The notes beneath the pieces were generated by a model that made no database searches, was not told the DNA's origin, and saw only the letters and a program-made list of their open reading frames with translations. A program made the translations under genes and the position numbers. From a virus: DNA of 26,260 nt. Positions 15,026-23,241 of this stretch are shown here, piece after piece. How positions within the stretch are numbered: the first letter of the stretch is position 1; every line of letters begins with the position of its first letter. The stretch covers positions 1 to 26,260 of the IMG/VR virus record IMGVR_UViG_3300013132_000226; one strand, given 5' to 3'.

Positions 15026-15574
15026 TTATCTATATCTTGGATTGGGTTGAGTTACACCTACAGGACAATCTACTTCGGTTTTATGAGCAATCTTTCTTGC
15101 CATTGCGTCTTGAATTCTTTTATTAGGTGGTTGCCCAATACCCAATTCATCGTGAGTATAAAAGCCATACAGCCAAATTGTTCCACCATCTAACTTGTAG
15201 ACAATGCTTAAATCTAAGGTGATATGTGCATGTTTTAAGTTGGGCACTGACCTTATGAACAATCCAGTACCTAAAAATAATTTATCACTTTTTCCAAATG
15301 GTTCAATGGGATTCCATCTTTTTAATTCCATGAAATCTCTAAACTTAGATCGAATGGCACTATAGGGTCTTACTTTGGCAAAGTAAGTTTCTTTATAACT
15401 ATCACAACGTCGAAATACAGTTTCTCTTTGGTTTGAGTTATTGCGATCAACCGAAGACAAACCTACCTCAGCTAGTATTTGATCAGCAGTTAACTCTTCG
15501 GACCAACAATTGGTATCTTGATCTTCCGATAAAAAATCAATTATTTTTGGTAGTATTACTTCTGAGATTTTCAT
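15026..15574 (-). CDS. Unrecognised protein with capsid-targeting-like N-terminus
   Basis: I do not recognise this 182-residue protein. It begins MKISEVILPKIIDFL, with an I-S-E triplet, followed by an acidic linker and a folded-looking alpha/beta region with strands LFIRSVPNL, HITLDLSIVYKL and IWLYGFYTHDELG. It is the last of three coupled genes whose products share this type of N-terminus; the start overlaps the upstream stop as ATGA. A role inside the virion or as a partner of the amidoligase-like protein is inferred from the operon. Confidence 0.6.
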   Translation of the reverse strand: MKISEVILPKIIDFLSEDQDTNCWSEELTADQILAEVGLSSVDRNNSNQRETVFRRCDSYKETYFAKVRPYSAIRSKFRDFMELKRWNPIEPFGKSDKLFLGTGLFIRSVPNLKHAHITLDLSIVYKLDGGTIWLYGFYTHDELGIGQPPNKRIQDAMARKIAHKTEVDCPVGVTQPNPRYR

Positions 15575-18500
15575 GACAATTCTCTTTCAACACGACCTAT
15601 TGTGTCGTGTAGGGTATAATTTGGAAACTCGTCTTCGTTGTGCCCCATATCTCTAAGATATCTAATAGCATTTAATTCTGCACTATCCATGTAGTCAGGT
15701 CTATGCAAGGTGTCACTGGGCAAGTTGAATCTATAACTAGATTCGCTGCCAGGTGTGTTTGTTCTTAAAATAAATCTTCCTTGTGGAGAATCGGGATAGT
15801 AGTCTCTGCCCGGCACATATCTAGGCTCAGAAGGCCACCAGGTTGATCTAGTTGCCGGAACAACTTCTAATTCGGCACCATTGCCCAATGTTAATCTTCC
15901 TTGACGTACTTGTTCTGAGGCCCAGGCACGAGCAGCAGCATTGGCATCACCTTGATTATTTCGATTCCAAAAACGATGCACTTCTTCACCATCAACTAGA
16001 ATGCTCCATTGTACACTTCCATTTTGGGTGGGAGGAGTATCGCCGCGACGTATAGGCTCAACACGGAATTGATTGGGTTCCAGAACACCATAGCCATTAT
16101 TGTATAGCCACATAGAGGCACGACTCTCAGCTTCTTGCTGACTTATACCGGTGTTAGTTCCTTGGTGTACTTCTTCACCATTGGCTAACACAATTCGCCA
16201 ACCTGATATAATACTAGGGTCTGTTGTTCTTGTAGAGCTTGCGGGACGAATTGTTCCTGTGCTCGGAGGCTGTTCTCTTACACTGTAGGAAGTATTGGGA
16301 TTACCATTGTTTCTAACCCATCGCAGACCTACTTCATTGGCATCTTGTTGATTATTTTCTCGACTGAGATAAAATTCGTAAGCAACTTCACCGTCGGCAC
16401 TATCTACAATCTGCCAAAGTCTATTGTTCGAAGTCGACGAATCAGTTTGTGCGGCCTGCTGTAGTTGACCGGTACCTGCAGGTTCAGATTGAGTATTAAT
16501 CGAACTTTCTGGATAAACAACTTGCCCATTACGATCTCTTAACTGATATCTTTCTGGATCAGAATATATTCCTGTCGCTGTTGCAATGCGTTGTTGAAAC
16601 TGTTGAATCGCATCTGCCACTGTTCTTGCTCGAATACCTGCTATATTGTATCTGTCCCGGGTATCATATATCGTATAGGTTTCTGGTTGTTGTGGTTGTC
16701 CGCGTTCTTGGCGTGGATCTGGTCTCAAAACATAATCCCCAGGATACTGTCTGTTCCATTGATCCAGTACAGTACGAGCATCATCTCCATTTGCAGCCAT
16801 AAATCGATATAATGGCGTGTTGACATCATCGATAAAGGCAATATACGAATTACCATCAGGGTTGCTGGGTCTACCATTTAGCACTGGCGGAGGTATATTG
16901 TTTTGCGTCCGTGAATATGAAGTTCTTGGTGTCACTGGTTCAAGTCTATACAATTGAGTCTGAGTATCTATTCCCATACTAGTCAGCCATCGACGATATG
17001 CAGTTTCGGCTTCCTGTGGAGTGTTTCTTGTAAAATAATTTATAATAGCATCGTCACTATTACGTACAATAGCATAATTTGAATCAGGCTCGTTTTCGGG
17101 GGCAACTAGTGTGCGTTTTGGTGGCAGTGCAGTGGCAACTAAATCTTCAGGTGCTATATTATACCAGTCTCGTCCTGACATTCTAGCCGCACGTATAGCT
17201 TCTTCTGCGCTTTTGGCTGATACTTCTACCGCTACGTAATTTTGTCTACCCACATCAGATTTTTTCATCACACGCCAAGTGTACGTTTCTCCGGGCTTTA
17301 ATCCGGTCTTTTTAAATTTCCTTGCTTGACGTATAGTTTTTAGAAAACTCATTAGTGCTGATCGTGGTAATCTGGTTTCCTTAGAACCAGGAGGCGGTGG
17401 CTCACCACCTGCATACTGAACAAAGTATTTTATAACATCTTCCTCGGCTGGGTCTTGGGGGATACGTGATCGCAACATTTTAGCTAATTTAACTTTATAT
17501 TCTCTTTGGTATGCGTTGGGATCACTGGCAGCATCTAAGACCACAACAAATCTTCTAAGAAAATCAGACAATTCTTCAGCGGTTTTTTCATTCCAATCTC
17601 CGCCAGGACTACGAAACTCAATTCTAAAATCTTCTCTGTCAATTATATAATGCACACTGAAATGATGATTAGATGCTTTAAACTTTCCTAGTGTGTTTAA
17701 TGCCTGTAGTGCTTTTGCAGAAAAACCGCGACGCATTTGCTCTAGATATAATTCCGCCTTTTCAGGAGTGACGTCACCACTTACGCTTTTCAATGCTGGG
17801 ATAGAATAAGTGTTAGTTGCTCGTTCAAACTTATTCAATACATAGTCGTCGCCTAACAACAAAATCAATTTCATGTAATCGATTTCGTCCGGATTGAATC
17901 CTTTTAGTCCTACATTCATATGCAATCCGGTACTGCCACGTAATTCTTTTTCATCACCTTTGAAGGTGTAAGCACCGGATTTTTTCATAAAATCTTTAAT
18001 ACTGGCAATCTTTTCAACCATTTCATCAACCGAGATCGGTGGACTAATAATTTCAATACCGTAATCCCCGGGTTCACGTGGACGATTTAAACTACTGTCG
18101 GGTTCAATGATCCAATAACGATCCTTGGGATCGGCATCTACTGCTACCCGCGGAACACCATGATAACGTGTACTGAATCTTATTGGAGTATTAACATATC
18201 CTTCAAGTTGGTCGGCGATTCGTTGTAGTACTTCATGGGACAAACTATCGGTATTAGTAGAGGGCCATCGTGCTTCATATCGTCTAGCAACATCTGACAT
18301 TTGGTCAAGTCCCACCGATGATAACCACTCACCTTCGTCGGCAGTGCCAAAAAAGTTTGACAATGCGTGATCTCGAGCATTTGAATAGTAGGGCTCAATC
18401 TTATCGTCTTCGATTACAGAAACAGCATCTAGGTAATCTCCTCGGCTAATTTCTTCTTCATCATCTTCGAGATTTAAAATCGATCTAATGTCATCCTCTG

Positions 18501-18843
18501 TCAGATTGTAAATATAGTCCCCGATTTCAGCATTGGAATTTCTGTCCCAATATTGATCGAACTGTTCCGCAGTCCATTCAGCCAATCCGTCCTGAAGCTC
18601 TTGTTCTAGTCTGTTTAAAAATCCATTGCTATTAGAGTCATGCTGTGAGAAAAACTCAAGGATGTTATCGATACTCTCAGTGTCTTCGTCCTCTATTACA
18701 CCACTAGAAAATCCAGGATAGTACATTTCGAACTCTAACCCAGTGGTAGCTGCTTCTACTTTGGAAGCAGCACGAACCAAGGCCTTTGGTCCCATACGAA
18801 TTTCGTTGATTAGATTGTCTTCGAATAACTCGTGTATTCTCAT
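15571..18843 (-). CDS. 1090-residue amidoligase-like protein with tandem repeats
   Basis: Two parts are visible. Residues 30-450 match the amidoligase (COOH-NH2 ligase, glutamine-synthetase-like) pattern: GLEFEM at 35-40, EPDSSL at 247-252, YGIEIISPP at 261-269, TGLHMNVG at 305-312 and RIEFRSPGGD at 407-416. Known members join amines to carboxyl groups using ATP, for example in peptide tagging or cell-wall linked chemistry. Residues 521-1080 hold eight degenerate repeats of 45-60 residues, each with an aromatic-x-I start, an EA/DA helix ending in W or R, and a final strand. The N-terminus MRIHELFEDN is like T4 capsid-targeting peptides. Both ends overlap neighbouring genes as ATGA. Amidoligase assignment is fairly sure from motifs; the target and the function of the repeats are unknown. 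Confidence 0.75.
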   Translation of the reverse strand: MRIHELFEDNLINEIRMGPKALVRAASKVEAATTGLEFEMYYPGFSSGVIEDEDTESIDNILEFFSQHDSNSNGFLNRLEQELQDGLAEWTAEQFDQYWDRNSNAEIGDYIYNLTEDDIRSILNLEDDEEEISRGDYLDAVSVIEDDKIEPYYSNARDHALSNFFGTADEGEWLSSVGLDQMSDVARRYEARWPSTNTDSLSHEVLQRIADQLEGYVNTPIRFSTRYHGVPRVAVDADPKDRYWIIEPDSSLNRPREPGDYGIEIISPPISVDEMVEKIASIKDFMKKSGAYTFKGDEKELRGSTGLHMNVGLKGFNPDEIDYMKLILLLGDDYVLNKFERATNTYSIPALKSVSGDVTPEKAELYLEQMRRGFSAKALQALNTLGKFKASNHHFSVHYIIDREDFRIEFRSPGGDWNEKTAEELSDFLRRFVVVLDAASDPNAYQREYKVKLAKMLRSRIPQDPAEEDVIKYFVQYAGGEPPPPGSKETRLPRSALMSFLKTIRQARKFKKTGLKPGETYTWRVMKKSDVGRQNYVAVEVSAKSAEEAIRAARMSGRDWYNIAPEDLVATALPPKRTLVAPENEPDSNYAIVRNSDDAIINYFTRNTPQEAETAYRRWLTSMGIDTQTQLYRLEPVTPRTSYSRTQNNIPPPVLNGRPSNPDGNSYIAFIDDVNTPLYRFMAANGDDARTVLDQWNRQYPGDYVLRPDPRQERGQPQQPETYTIYDTRDRYNIAGIRARTVADAIQQFQQRIATATGIYSDPERYQLRDRNGQVVYPESSINTQSEPAGTGQLQQAAQTDSSTSNNRLWQIVDSADGEVAYEFYLSRENNQQDANEVGLRWVRNNGNPNTSYSVREQPPSTGTIRPASSTRTTDPSIISGWRIVLANGEEVHQGTNTGISQQEAESRASMWLYNNGYGVLEPNQFRVEPIRRGDTPPTQNGSVQWSILVDGEEVHRFWNRNNQGDANAAARAWASEQVRQGRLTLGNGAELEVVPATRSTWWPSEPRYVPGRDYYPDSPQGRFILRTNTPGSESSYRFNLPSDTLHRPDYMDSAELNAIRYLRDMGHNEDEFPNYTLHDTIGRVERELS
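15604..17283 (-). repeat. Eight degenerate protein repeats in the amidoligase gene
   Basis: At the protein level repeats begin near residues 521, 589, 666, 722, 809, 881, 945 and 1022. Shared features are YTW/YAI/YIAF/YTI/WQI/WRI/WSI/FIL openings, an Asp/Gly turn, a Gln/Glu-Ala helix and a closing strand. Pro/Gln/Ser-rich linkers separate several of them. The copies are old: no DNA repeat is visible. Confidence 0.65.
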
Positions 18844-20228
18844 GGTATGTTTACACCTTGCAGTTTCTGTGCCTGCATAATCAATGCATTAATACTATCT
18901 TTCAATTGAACACCTGTTCGAACAGCCTCTTCTTGTTGTTTTAGAGCCACTGAGACTTGAGGACTAGTTTTAAATCTATTGTCGTTGATAGCACGTATAC
19001 TATTTTTTCGTTTGAATTCGTCTATGGTTCTAGTGAGTTGGGAACTTAGATCAACTAACTTAATTAATGGGTCAAAACTTCCCACAGTAGCAGCCTCTGA
19101 TCTCAGTTTCTCTGTACGTTTTCTTATTCGATCAATCTTAGCTAAATATTCCGCTTGGGTTTTATTGGAATGATCAAAATAACTGTTTTGAGCCATACTA
19201 TTCGACAACTCAATTGTCTCGGGGTGTGCATAGCCGGAATGTAAAACTGCATATGCTACATCATATGCTAATTCCCAATCTTGGATACGTGCTTGATGAC
19301 CACCGGATCTTTTTAGAATAAAAGAAAGATAATTTAGTATTTTGCGTCCAACAAATGCGTCGCCTTTTGTTAAAGCAGTTCTAAAATGCCGATTAGTAAA
19401 ATGAGAACGGAATTGTTCTGCTGTTTTTTCTAGAGTGCCCTGCAGACCTCGTGGATTAGTTTCGGGTTGATCTACTTCTATTCTTGTGTCTTCCACTGAC
19501 AGAGTTTTCACTAGTTCTATAGCAGCAGGATCAACGACTACTCCTTGGTTTGGTTCGTTTTCGTGTATAACACCTCGAGAATCCATGTAGGCCGATATCC
19601 CTAACAGACGGCTTAGCCAGTTCCATAATACCGGTGATCGTTGAGCCTGCATATATTCTCGACGAGATTTTTTCCTTAGATAAGGAACATTAAGTACCTC
19701 TGTGCTTAATTTATACAATAAATACCAAAATTGTCCTCCAGGGGTACTAACTAAGGCCGCTGCCGGAGCATCGCTTACTATATCATCAATGACTTGATCA
19801 ATGTCAACATCTTTTATATATTCTGCAAATTCTGGAACTGTTGCATTTATTTGTGGAATTTTTGATCTCAGCAAACGCACATAACCGCGTACAGTTTTAT
19901 CGGTCATCTTGTCTAAATTCAATACAGTACCAGACTCGGGCTTGATGCGAAATATCTGTATATATTTCGGATCTTCGGGATGAGGCATTCGCTGTCCTTG
20001 TTGAACCTCGTTCACATAGAAACTCAAAGGATAAAAATAAATGCCCAACGGTGTATTATATGTGCTTCGCGGATTGATCCCCAATTTATTGACCATGGTG
20101 AGCGATACACCATATTGACCATATTGGTCTGGGGTTATGTTTTGCTTAATCCACTCCAAAGAACCGCGATACCCTATTAACTCCTTTGGGCCACGTTTTT
20201 CATCTAAGAACAGTTCAAAAAGACGCAT
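18840..20228 (-). CDS. Possible ADP-ribosyltransferase-like capsid cargo protein
   Basis: The start is set at 20228: an upstream ATG would lie inside the terminator of the preceding gene. The 462-residue product begins MRLFELFLDEK, closely like T4 Alt (MELITELFDED), an ADP-ribosyltransferase packaged in the T4 head. YRGS follows at residues 20-23, and TPLGIYFYPLSFYV at 59-72 with a later FRIKPESGTVLNLD strand, an order seen in ADP-ribosyltransferase folds (R/H-G-S/T, then GIYF). A clear catalytic Glu was not identified, so the fold call is tentative. Residues 200-462 are helical and basic. A TATAAATA late-type box precedes the gene by seven bases, and the gene heads a three-gene coupled operon. 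Confidence 0.5.
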   Translation of the reverse strand: MRLFELFLDEKRGPKELIGYRGSLEWIKQNITPDQYGQYGVSLTMVNKLGINPRSTYNTPLGIYFYPLSFYVNEVQQGQRMPHPEDPKYIQIFRIKPESGTVLNLDKMTDKTVRGYVRLLRSKIPQINATVPEFAEYIKDVDIDQVIDDIVSDAPAAALVSTPGGQFWYLLYKLSTEVLNVPYLRKKSRREYMQAQRSPVLWNWLSRLLGISAYMDSRGVIHENEPNQGVVVDPAAIELVKTLSVEDTRIEVDQPETNPRGLQGTLEKTAEQFRSHFTNRHFRTALTKGDAFVGRKILNYLSFILKRSGGHQARIQDWELAYDVAYAVLHSGYAHPETIELSNSMAQNSYFDHSNKTQAEYLAKIDRIRKRTEKLRSEAATVGSFDPLIKLVDLSSQLTRTIDEFKRKNSIRAINDNRFKTSPQVSVALKQQEEAVRTGVQLKDSINALIMQAQKLQGVNIP

Positions 20229-20235
20229 GATCTTA

Positions 20236-20243
20236 TATTTATA
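20236..20243 (-). promoter_or_regulatory. T4-type late promoter box TATAAATA
   Basis: TATAAATA reads leftward directly after the terminator at 20249-20277 and seven bases before the ATG at 20228. T4 late promoters consist of this single element. The short distance predicts a leaderless or nearly leaderless transcript. Confidence 0.55.
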
Positions 20244-20799: not shown

Positions 20800-21318
20800 T
20801 TAGTTTGTCATAACACGGCTGACCGCTGTCATTACAGCAGCGATACGGCCAATGTCTCTTAGTTGCTCCACACTATAACCTTCTTTTTTCAAGGTATCAT
20901 AGTGGGCTCGAACACAAAACTCGCATTTACCCACAATACTGGCAGCAAGGCTATATGCTTCAAAACGAGCCTTAGTAGTTCCACCATGTGTGGCAATAGC
21001 ATTCATACGTAGTTGGGCGGGTAATCCCGACAACTGTTCGTCCGCGGCCATTTCAACATAGGGGTACCAGGTATTGTTCATGGACATCAATGATGCTGCG
21101 GTAATAGCAGCATTGACTTCTGCTTGACTCGAACCAGCTATTTGACCACTAATCCATGTCCATAATTTACTATTGCCTGTAGCAAAGGATGCGGCCAATG
21201 CTACACATTGTGCTTCCTCGAGATCTAATGTGCTACGTTTTACCACTGCGTCCAGATTAAGCCTTGTGTCCTTAGCATAGTCTGGGATTGCTTCCTTTAA
21301 TTGATCAACCCAATTCAT
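20800..21318 (-). CDS. ahpD: Alkyl hydroperoxidase AhpD
   Basis: The 172-residue helical protein has the AhpD active site E120-x11-C132-x2-C135-x3-H139 (KCEFCVRAHYDTL), the same spacing as in mycobacterial AhpD. AhpD keeps AhpC reduced, drawing electrons from a lipoyl protein, and has weak peroxidase activity itself. Length is near the family norm of about 175. The start overlaps the end of the TerC gene by 14 bp, with AAGGA some 12 bases upstream. Co-occurrence with an AhpC of the AhpD-dependent type in the same operon supports a working pair. Such a gene is unusual in a phage and was probably acquired from a bacterium. Confidence 0.9.
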   Translation of the reverse strand: MNWVDQLKEAIPDYAKDTRLNLDAVVKRSTLDLEEAQCVALAASFATGNSKLWTWISGQIAGSSQAEVNAAITAASLMSMNNTWYPYVEMAADEQLSGLPAQLRMNAIATHGGTTKARFEAYSLAASIVGKCEFCVRAHYDTLKKEGYSVEQLRDIGRIAAVMTAVSRVMTN

Positions 21319-21988
21319 TATTACGATTTTTCCTTTTTAGTTTTAGATTACGACGTATTTCAAACCAATAGTATTGTTTTCCTAACAGGACTGCACCCAT
21401 AAAGAACGGGAATAATGTTTCCAGTTTTGGAAAGTCTTTCCACTCTTCGGCAATAAACGGTTCTCCAATAATCATTTTACAGGCCACAACAAACAGCACA
21501 AAACTACCAATGTAAACTGCATTAGGATATCGTTTTAACAAACGTGCAATTACAGTGCTGCCAAACAAAATAATAGGTACACTAACTAGCAATCCAAAAA
21601 TTACCAACCACATATTACCATCAGCAGCAGCAGCAATACCAAGTGCATTATCTACACCCATAACTGCATCTGCGACTACAATAGTGCTGATAGCACCCCA
21701 GAAAGTCGATTTAGCTGCAATATCATGTTCCTTTTCGCTCTGTACTAATGTCCAAGCAATGTAAACCAATAAAAGCCCGCCCACTAATTTAAGTCCAGGA
21801 ACCATTAGTAGATAGGTCAACAATGCTACTGATATAAATCTTACTGCCACAGCACCGAATGTACCCCACATAATTGCTCGACGCTTAAGATGCTCGGGCA
21901 ACTTATTCGCAGCCATACCAATTACTAAGGCATTATCTCCGGCTAATACTACATCAATCATGATGATTGCCAGTACGGCCCAAATCAT
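21305..21988 (-). CDS. TerC/YjbE-family integral membrane protein
   Basis: The 227-residue protein has about seven hydrophobic segments and the two family motifs DVVLAGDNALVIG (residues 12-24) and DAVMGVDNAL (107-116), whose acidic residues are thought to bind metal. TerC proteins of the YjbE type export manganese in Bacillus and are linked to metallation of secreted proteins; in others they accompany stress genes. Beside AhpC and AhpD, a manganese or metal-balance role during peroxide stress is likely but inferred. The ATG at 21988 has no good ribosome binding site. An AGGAG element lies just upstream at the end of the aldolase gene, where an unusual ATA or TTA start would be better spaced, so the N-terminus may be slightly longer. 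Confidence 0.88.
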   Translation of the reverse strand: MIWAVLAIIMIDVVLAGDNALVIGMAANKLPEHLKRRAIMWGTFGAVAVRFISVALLTYLLMVPGLKLVGGLLLVYIAWTLVQSEKEHDIAAKSTFWGAISTIVVADAVMGVDNALGIAAAADGNMWLVIFGLLVSVPIILFGSTVIARLLKRYPNAVYIGSFVLFVVACKMIIGEPFIAEEWKDFPKLETLFPFFMGAVLLGKQYYWFEIRRNLKLKRKNRNNELG

Positions 21989-21996
21989 TTCTAATG

Positions 21997-22644
21997 TTAT
22001 TTTACAACTCCTTTACTTGCTAATACGATCTTACAAATATGTTCGAGCCGTTCTATATGCTCAAACGCACGCCATGGACTAGTGTCCACTGCTACTACAC
22101 CATGTCGATCCATGCCCACAACATGATTTAGCACACTGCCATTATTGGTCAATCCAAATTCTGGAATAACCGCATCGGCTAGTTCTTGGCTAATCACAGG
22201 CACAACTGGTACAGTACGGCCCACTCTTGTATATCGACCCAGTTCGGGAAAGTCCTTTACTAGGTCACTGAGCTCAATTCCGGCATACATTGCGGCCACA
22301 GTATAAGTTGGATGAAAGTGAAGAACCACACGAACTTCAGTATCGATACTTTTTTGTAATCCAAAATGTAGTGGTATTTCTCCGCTAACTTTTAGATTAT
22401 CACTGATATCGGTGTATTCAGTTTCCTGCCAAGATTCTCTAATAAAAGGAGGAACTGCATGGGTTTCTTGAATTACACGAATACGTTTAAACATCTCAGG
22501 TTGTAGATATTGTTTACGTATACCAGTGGGTGTGATATAAAAGTGATCACGATCATGCCAACGTATACTGGCATTACCATCTCTGGCTGTGATCCAGTTA
22601 CGTCGATATGCTTCTTGGAACAAATCAGAGATGGTTTCTAACAT
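21997..22644 (-). CDS. Class II aldolase/adducin-family protein
   Basis: The 215-residue protein has the fuculose-phosphate aldolase family layout: GNAS at residues 23-26 and TPTG at 38-41 for phosphate binding, SGEIPLHF at 87-94 with the catalytic-type Glu89, the metal site HFHP at 109-112 and a third ligand His181 (DRHGVVAV). All zinc ligands and the Glu appear intact, so an active enzyme on a phosphorylated sugar or related carbonyl compound is likely; the substrate is not known. It begins one base after the AhpC stop, so it belongs to the same operon. Its part in peroxide defence is unclear. Confidence 0.85.
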   Translation of the reverse strand: MLETISDLFQEAYRRNWITARDGNASIRWHDRDHFYITPTGIRKQYLQPEMFKRIRVIQETHAVPPFIRESWQETEYTDISDNLKVSGEIPLHFGLQKSIDTEVRVVLHFHPTYTVAAMYAGIELSDLVKDFPELGRYTRVGRTVPVVPVISQELADAVIPEFGLTNNGSVLNHVVGMDRHGVVAVDTSPWRAFEHIERLEHICKIVLASKGVVK

Positions 22645-22645
22645 A

Positions 22646-23212
22646 TTATACCTTTAGTGTATCGCCGCCGACGGCACGATTGCAAGCACAGAGTTCGCCA
22701 GTTTGGAGACTGTCGAGAACACGTAGAGTTTCCTCGGGGCTACGACCAACATTCAAGTTGTTAACGGTGACATGTTGAATTACATTATCGGGGTCAACAA
22801 TAAAGGTAGCACGTAGAGCAGCACCAGCAGGATTATAAAATACACCCAGTTGATCCACTAGCCCAACAACGGAACTGTCACGATCCCAAAAGGTACGAAC
22901 TGTGTCAGCAAATTGAATGTGACGGATCTTCTGTAGATCTGGATGGGCTTTTTGCCAGGCCACTTTGCAGAACTCATTGTCGGTACTACCAGTTAGTAGA
23001 ACTGCATCACGGTCTTCAAAGTCTTGGAACAGTTTATCATAGGCCACGATCTCTGTGGGGCAAACGAACGTAAAATCTTTTGGGTAATAGACAATTACTT
23101 TCCATTTACCTTTAAAACTTTCTTCATTGATTGTGAAGAATGCATCGTCGGGTTGACCAGGACGTACACCGGTTACTACAAATGGCTCGAGGCGATCGCC
23201 AACAGTTTTCAT
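22646..23212 (-). CDS. ahpC: Peroxiredoxin AhpC (AhpD-dependent type)
   Basis: The ATG at 23212 is chosen because AAGGAG lies six bases upstream; an upstream in-frame start lacks this. The 188-residue enzyme has the peroxidatic Cys51 in FTFVCPTE and the C-terminal pair Cys175 and Cys177 in LCACN, as in mycobacterial AhpC, which uses AhpD for reduction. It reduces hydrogen peroxide and organic peroxides in the cytoplasm. It heads the operon AhpC - aldolase - TerC - AhpD. A TATAAT element with a 15-bp palindrome in the position of its spacer lies upstream, suggesting regulated expression. Probably of bacterial origin; not a usual T4-like phage gene. Confidence 0.93.
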   Translation of the reverse strand: MKTVGDRLEPFVVTGVRPGQPDDAFFTINEESFKGKWKVIVYYPKDFTFVCPTEIVAYDKLFQDFEDRDAVLLTGSTDNEFCKVAWQKAHPDLQKIRHIQFADTVRTFWDRDSSVVGLVDQLGVFYNPAGAALRATFIVDPDNVIQHVTVNNLNVGRSPEETLRVLDSLQTGELCACNRAVGGDTLKV

Positions 23213-23241
23213 AAATTCTCCTTGATTGAAAAACAATAAAA

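Follow-up and report, generated by a model that had tools for sequence, protein, structure and literature searches.

Glutamine synthetase (GS)-like amidoligases (Amidoligase_2, PF12224) were reportedly described by Iyer et al. in 2009, and a domain of this kind forms the core of the gene examined in this study, which lies on a 26,260-nucleotide (nt) stretch of viral DNA (IMG/VR virus record IMGVR_UViG_3300013132_000226, positions 1 to 26,260; hereafter the window). Two other described systems bear on this gene. In phage T4, the first ten residues of the internal protein IPIII are enough for incorporation into the head (PMC9026906), the gp21 protease cleaves after L/I-X-E (PMC9026906; also PMC9958956), and Alt is trimmed at both ends (PMC5694885). 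In addition, the polyvalent proteins of phages and conjugative elements, in the account of which amidoligases are absent, are thought to be injected (Iyer et al. 2017, PMC5512222). On balance, the window gene probably encodes a head-packaged, protease-trimmed amidoligase effector of a freshwater-type, T4-like jumbo phage that is ejected into the host, with a C-terminal array of repeats that may act as docking modules and would not be the substrate.

The gene is read without stops on the minus strand, from 18843 to 15571, as an open reading frame (ORF) of 1090 amino acids (aa). The coordinates given by the initial annotation were correct, and a plus-strand reading of 15571-18843 was ruled out by stops throughout. 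The amidoligase core claimed by that annotation was borne out by a profile search, in which PF12224 scored 31.2 bits (cut-off 22, E 2.6e-7) over residues 205-428, with the amidoligases of relatives likewise exceeding the cut-off, and by its GS fold; the motifs that had been named (GLEFEM, EPDSS, YGIEIISPP, TGLHMNVG and RIEFRSPGG) are all present. Invariant in a 34-sequence alignment are E37, E39, E247-P248-D249, E264, T305-G306, H308, N310, R341, E409, R411 and R431; among these, the acidic, His and Arg residues E37, E39, E247, E264, H308, R341, E409 and R411 are taken to be equivalent to GS active-site residues. When an AlphaFold2 model of the window protein built from this alignment was compared with structures, all 50 listed matches were glutamine synthetases and close GS-fold ligases, the best GS match having a Z of 10.9 and a root-mean-square deviation of 4.0 over 198 residues; Foldseek comparison of the model with the PDB placed glutamine synthetase first, yet no match was significant. 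Because of the profile match, the invariant residues and the structural alignment, residues 15-460 are identified as a GS-fold amidoligase, presumably a catalytic one. A candidate fn3 domain (PF00041) at residues 466-534 was dropped, as its score fell below the cut-off and it overlaps a helical linker.

Searched alone against IMG/VR, the window protein had no match; the family was opened by alignments of two and then five sequences, the latter leading to 420 relatives in IMG/VR, of which 80 were kept and 61 were distinct. Among about 50,700 phage records, Agrobacterium phage Atu_ph07 alone matched the window protein at this similarity level; the family is large (420 IMG/VR loci) and nearly absent from cultured phages. 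None of 67 pattern matches in GTDB genome contigs was a relative, and there is therefore no sign of cellular copies.

The window protein starts with MRIHELFEDNLINE followed by IRM, giving a candidate cut between LINE and I after residue 14. This N-terminus is similar in pattern to those of T4 IPII and IPIII, which start MKTYQEFIAE, and its first 14 residues have no ordered structure in the AlphaFold2 model (predicted local distance difference test, pLDDT, under 50). Directly ahead of the amidoligase, position P3 of the junction was Leu (53) or Ile (6) in all 59 contexts from relatives, which were picked by the rule E-[IVL]-x-M with P3 outside the rule, compared with 660 of 5586 (12%) for all Glu in these proteins; P2 and P2' were variable. 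The same sites recur among the longer polyprotein relatives described below: of the 14 that run on for over 100 aa beyond their final detected repeat, 9 carry [L/I]-x-E within 20 residues (13% background, P 1e-5), although near-duplicates occur among the homologues. In addition, the pattern M[KR]xx[EDN][FILVM] heads 12 of the 355 ORFs of a 338-kb relative, compared with 2.0 +/- 1.4 after shuffling (maximum of 9 in 300 shuffles), and similar tags head other, unrelated proteins both in this relative and in Atu_ph07. The start of the window protein resembles a capsid-targeting peptide of the T4 type with a prohead-protease site at its end, and the capsid-like N-terminus suggested in the initial annotation is supported by the comparison with IPII and IPIII and by the conserved L/I-x-E junction.

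Genome context points in the same direction. Matches above the cut-off to Peptidase_S77, the gp21-family protease, were found in the 338-kb and 117-kb relatives (G001 and G002) and in Atu_ph07, in which the match coincides with gp204, annotated as a prohead core protein. The Atu_ph07 amidoligase is gp196, by count from the portal (gp198), gp204 and the major capsid protein (gp215), and falls within virion cluster CDS (coding sequences) 170-215, one of three clusters that hold most of the virion proteins of this phage by mass spectrometry; 29 were identified in another, CDS 31-76 (PMC6102473). This latter cluster holds 48 of the 809 ORFs of the phage and 13 of its 26 tagged ORFs. Two further observations concern Atu_ph07: eleven adjacent genes at 39484-50592 of MF403008.1, inside a virion cluster defined by mass spectrometry, start with M[RK]WxQL[TN]E or a similar sequence, and the tagged ORFs at 290373-290885 and 303755-304783 resemble ADP-ribosyltransferases by eye.

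The motif TATAAATA is that of the T4 late promoter. In the window, an operon running from 20228 to 15026 is preceded by a terminator and then by TATAAATA, 15 nt ahead of the first gene. The motif is present 18 times in the 338-kb relative; in 14 cases an ORF starts within 120 bp downstream of it, and one copy stands ahead of the operon that has the polyprotein as its last gene. Among 56 relatives, TATAAATA stands beside the amidoligase start in four (0.16 expected) at a spacing of 15-16 or 27 nt, the spacing in L072, L104 and L029 being 15-16 nt as in the window operon. As a separate observation, the motif is strongly avoided in G001, the 338-kb record behind L004 (18 copies, where base composition alone would predict approximately 78), other than immediately ahead of ORFs, and may mark late genes well in that genome.

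Taken together, head packaging of the amidoligase protein appears well supported, if indirectly, and the delivery via the particle envisaged in the initial annotation is backed by the targeting peptide, the protease site, the late-type promoter and the virion gene cluster. Several points weigh against this interpretation. The case for both the window protein and gp196 is drawn from sequence and gene position and not from proteomics of either protein. No head genes lie on the window, a 26-kb fragment, and TATAAATA occurs in it twice where 2.2 copies are expected by chance; the window promoter is therefore suggestive only. It is also important to note that gp196 lies on the strand opposite to the portal and capsid genes, that the P value of 1e-10 for the clustering of tagged Atu_ph07 ORFs in CDS 31-76 is inflated, being uncorrected for paralogy when many of these ORFs are mutual paralogues, and that conservation runs across the cut site through residues 14-22 (E..M....L), possibly for structural reasons.

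Behind the amidoligase, the initial annotation had placed eight tandem copies (here r1 to r8) of one small domain. The summed pairwise Smith-Waterman score of these eight segments (residues 521-1090), delimited by eye, was 1000, compared with 756 +/- 31 (maximum of 846) for residue shuffles. A profile built from relatives and r7 alone, and thus containing one of the sequences it scored, detected r2, r3, r5, r6 and r7 at 18-43 bits. In the AlphaFold2 model, r1, r2, r3, r5, r6 and r7 are beta-beta-alpha-beta (E-E-H-E) units with a pLDDT of about 75-95 and disordered stretches between them; these six copies are solid, and r4 and r8, with low pLDDT and no profile score, are unproven. The repeat profile found 156 copies in 57 of about 65 relatives, with one to five detected copies in each, and an earlier iterated profile gave a similar result. 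Conservation is strongest in the last copy (W(K/R)V...GxEvyRFsGxGNxQxDANRxAxxWL...EVxPxM); within the 46 of 46 counts for terminal repeats, the share of GNxQxDAN is circular, being the selection rule, and the counts for Gly, Pro and both Trp are independent of it. All copies have in common a Trp or Tyr at column 6, Ala at column 28 (149 of 153), mostly Trp or Tyr at column 35, and hydrophobic positions.

No family in Pfam, PHROGs or the PDB sequences claims the repeat, as only scattered weak matches were returned, and the view of the initial annotation that it could not be assigned to a known family is supported at the level of sequence, the whole-model PDB comparison not having probed the repeat fold. 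A match to DUF2188 remained below its cut-off, a single-sequence model of the repeats, of low quality over its second half, yielded no usable match in a PDB search, and a faint likeness to protein G B1 and to an EHEE mini-protein is at best shared topology. A 138-aa tagged protein adjoining the 338-kb relative's polyprotein also contains one copy of the repeat, and a further protein with the repeat, tagged and 791 aa long, lies at the L061 amidoligase locus; neither of the two carries an amidoligase. Conversely, the profile search did not detect repeats in the amidoligases of Atu_ph07 and L005. Because the repeat occurs without the ligase and the ligase without a detectable repeat, it is a mobile module of this protein set and not an obligatory ligase substrate.

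Two architectures dominate among the relatives. In the first, as in the window, a short tagged N-terminus leads straight onto the amidoligase. In the second, found in many relatives, polyproteins of 1200-2850 aa (largest 2845 aa) combine the amidoligase with other, effector-like enzymes: ahead of the amidoligase and repeats they have a Pol-beta nucleotidyltransferase-like domain (phrog_36119) or an NMNAT-type cytidyltransferase, and after these a deaminase (PF00383), GNAT or ParB-like module or, by eye, a GH19-like, NlpC-like or metallopeptidase module. The 2845-aa ORF, at 5064-13601 of L003/L004 in the 338-kb phage, has a cytidyltransferase (phrog_3041), two amidoligases, each preceded by L/I-x-E sites, and at least five repeats. 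It is conceivable, at somewhat less than an even chance, that in freshwater T4-like jumbo phages a single late gene specifies a chain of enzymes directed at the host, among them a nucleotidyltransferase, an amidoligase, a deaminase and an acetyltransferase, and that this chain is packed whole into the head, cut at L/I-x-E by the prohead protease and ejected as a set, with the amidoligase and docking repeats as the common core and the window protein as the single-module form. Side observations on these loci include the differing polyprotein ends of L065 (6630-11759), L037 (5384-13066), L108 (6603-11519) and L076 (6564-11327), which comprise cytidine deaminase, GNAT, ParB-like and GH19-like modules; a basic peptide, ENFADG...KASVxxLRKxAK...AHWxANMKAGRAK, that recurs at the ends of polyproteins of this group; and a DUF6267 protein (PF19782) at 3469-4608 of L004, with a tag-like start (MFINQILTEA) and a KWDGKP motif like motif I of nucleic-acid ligases.

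From the T4 model and the sequence, we infer that the gene would be made late in infection, that residues 1-14 would act as a capsid-targeting peptide taking the protein into the prohead core, that a gp21-type prohead protease would cut after LINE-14 to leave the amidoligase and repeats inside the head, and that the protein would then be ejected into the bacterium with the phage DNA. What follows is a guess guided by the fold and by the company the domain keeps: the GS-fold domain might consume ATP in creating an amide or isopeptide bond, either on a host target or on another ejected protein, and the repeats, small beta-beta-alpha-beta domains strung together by flexible linkers, might dock the enzyme to its partner. 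The host-target binder among the initial proposals for the repeats thus forms part of this reading.

There are several alternative explanations. The amidoligase may work inside the particle, cross-linking or modifying head or internal proteins at maturation, with the repeats binding the core or DNA; the targeting and cleavage evidence fits such a role equally, as does the repeat in tagged, ligase-free proteins, which would suit packaging or core binding. However, the fused or adjoining modules (deaminase, GNAT, Pol-beta nucleotidyltransferase, NMNAT-type cytidyltransferase, GH19-like, SLT) look host-directed and not like assembly factors, and this explanation is unlikely. It is less probable still that the protein is an ordinary late cytoplasmic enzyme whose N-terminal pattern is a coincidence or part of the enzyme fold. 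Such an enzyme would accord with virion evidence that is not direct and with the conservation of residues past the junction, but not with L/I-x-E in every junction context against its 12% background, with the disorder of residues 1-14 beside an ordered domain in the model, or with the same tag on unrelated proteins. Only a slim chance is given to a wall-acting protein, with peptidoglycan precursors or stem peptides as what the amidoligase edits and the repeats as wall-binding elements: wall-degrading enzymes do occur in some polyproteins or neighbours (SLT and PG_binding with the L005 amidoligase, in a polyprotein or as a neighbour, and by eye a GH19-like C-terminus in L076), but no wall-binding profile matches the repeats, and the wall-binding array proposed initially was not upheld. 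Finally, a self-modified ladder, in which the repeats are the ligase's own substrate, is very improbable despite their fusion in cis and variable copy number (1 to at least 5 detected), since Lys is nearly absent from the 156 copies (28% at column 7 and no more than 10% at any other), no acidic position is common to all of them, repeats occur in two ligase-free tagged proteins, and the Atu_ph07 and L005 ligases lack detectable repeats.

The features of the favoured effector gene and its operon are collected in Table 1. Elsewhere in the window, positions 3-2874 hold two adjoining proteins that are nucleotidyltransferase-like by eye, one with DUF5661 (PF18905) at its end, and the protein at 2032-2874 has a tag-like start, MKVNEIIVEQNLDE. 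Adjacent genes at 20800-23236 encode AhpD-like (PF02627), TerC, class II aldolase and AhpC-type peroxiredoxin proteins, possibly a peroxide or stress module in this phage contig.

Table 1. Positions of the amidoligase-repeat gene, its parts and its operon in the window.
Feature	Position	Strand	Remarks
T4-type late promoter candidate, TATAAATA	20236..20243	-	15 nt before ATG 20228, directly after hairpin and T-run terminator
Upstream gene, same operon; starts MRLFELFLDE; second tagged protein	18840..20228	-	ATG 20228 likelier start than GTG 20264
Whole gene, 1090 aa: putative targeting peptide, amidoligase and repeats	15571..18843	-	4-base overlaps (ATGA-type) with upstream and downstream ORFs, operon-like
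Capsid-targeting-like propeptide MRIHELFEDNLINE, residues 1-14	18802..18843	-	Two L/I-x-E sites: LFE-8, INE-14
GS-fold amidoligase domain, residues 15-460	17464..18801	-	PF12224, structural Z 10.9, invariant residues
Repeat r1, residues 521-589	17077..17283	-	E-E-H-E, high pLDDT over core; like first C-terminal repeat of relatives
Repeat r2, residues 590-665	16849..17076	-	37.5 bits with relatives' profile; E-E-H-E
Repeat r3, residues 666-720	16684..16848	-	24.4 bits with relatives' profile; E-E-H-E
Repeat r4, residues 721-807, unproven	16423..16683	-	No score with relatives' profile; low pLDDT
Repeat r5, residues 808-880	16204..16422	-	30.2 bits with relatives' profile; E-E-H-E
Repeat r6, residues 881-944	16012..16203	-	18.6 bits with relatives' profile; E-E-H-E
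Repeat r7, residues 945-1022	15778..16011	-	Matches strongly conserved terminal repeat of relatives (NxQxDAN); E-E-H-E
Repeat r8, residues 1023-1090, unproven	15574..15777	-	Low pLDDT; no profile score
Downstream gene; starts MKISEVILPK; possible third tagged protein	15026..15574	-	

UniProt already calls some relatives 'Amidoligase enzyme'; no description of the family was found in the literature searched, which was limited, so that a missing description there is no proof of novelty. In a jumbo-phage survey (PMC7824862) amidoligases appear solely in one reference title, and a 2026 review of jumbo phages mentions neither amidoligase nor polyprotein nor prohead. If the proposed reading is correct, protein ligation would join ADP-ribosylation among the chemistries that phages deliver as infection begins, and the role of the prohead protease would extend from assembly to the processing of an effector cocktail. 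The L/I-x-E junctions make a direct mass-spectrometry test feasible on one existing phage.

Compared to known systems, the window domain is like Amidoligase_2 in its profile match, its GS fold and its E.E, EPD, H.N and E.R residues, and the window protein differs in an alpha-helical insert (approximately residues 58-217), the putative targeting peptide and the C-terminal repeat array; an operon pairing the window amidoligase with a peptide substrate was not found. The closest cultured counterpart, gp196 of Atu_ph07 (AUZ94978.1, UniProt A0A2L0UZM1 'Amidoligase enzyme'), is 28% identical over the ligase core and has a similar junction, between LTE and L at residue 13, with no repeats detected. 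The best structural matches in the viral library were 'Amidoligase enzyme' models from uncultured Caudovirales, such as A0A6J5LC14 (1071 aa), for which the literature searched yielded no account of packaging, cleavage or repeats. The window protein shares with T4 IPI-IPIII and Alt an N-terminal tag ending in L/I-x-E, and a gp21-family protease occurs in relatives, although no similarity of the window protein to Alt or the internal proteins was found. Alt is, as proposed for the window protein, a protein-modifying head enzyme, but it is an ADP-ribosyltransferase, in contrast to the ligase fold seen here, and unlike the T4 proteins the relatives of the window protein often sit in a multi-module polyprotein. 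Finally, like the polyvalent proteins (PMC5512222), these relatives are large and multidomain and many of them mix several unrelated enzymes in one polypeptide (the window protein itself has one enzyme and repeats); they differ from polyvalent proteins in having prohead-protease-type sites between modules and T4-like jumbo phages as carriers.

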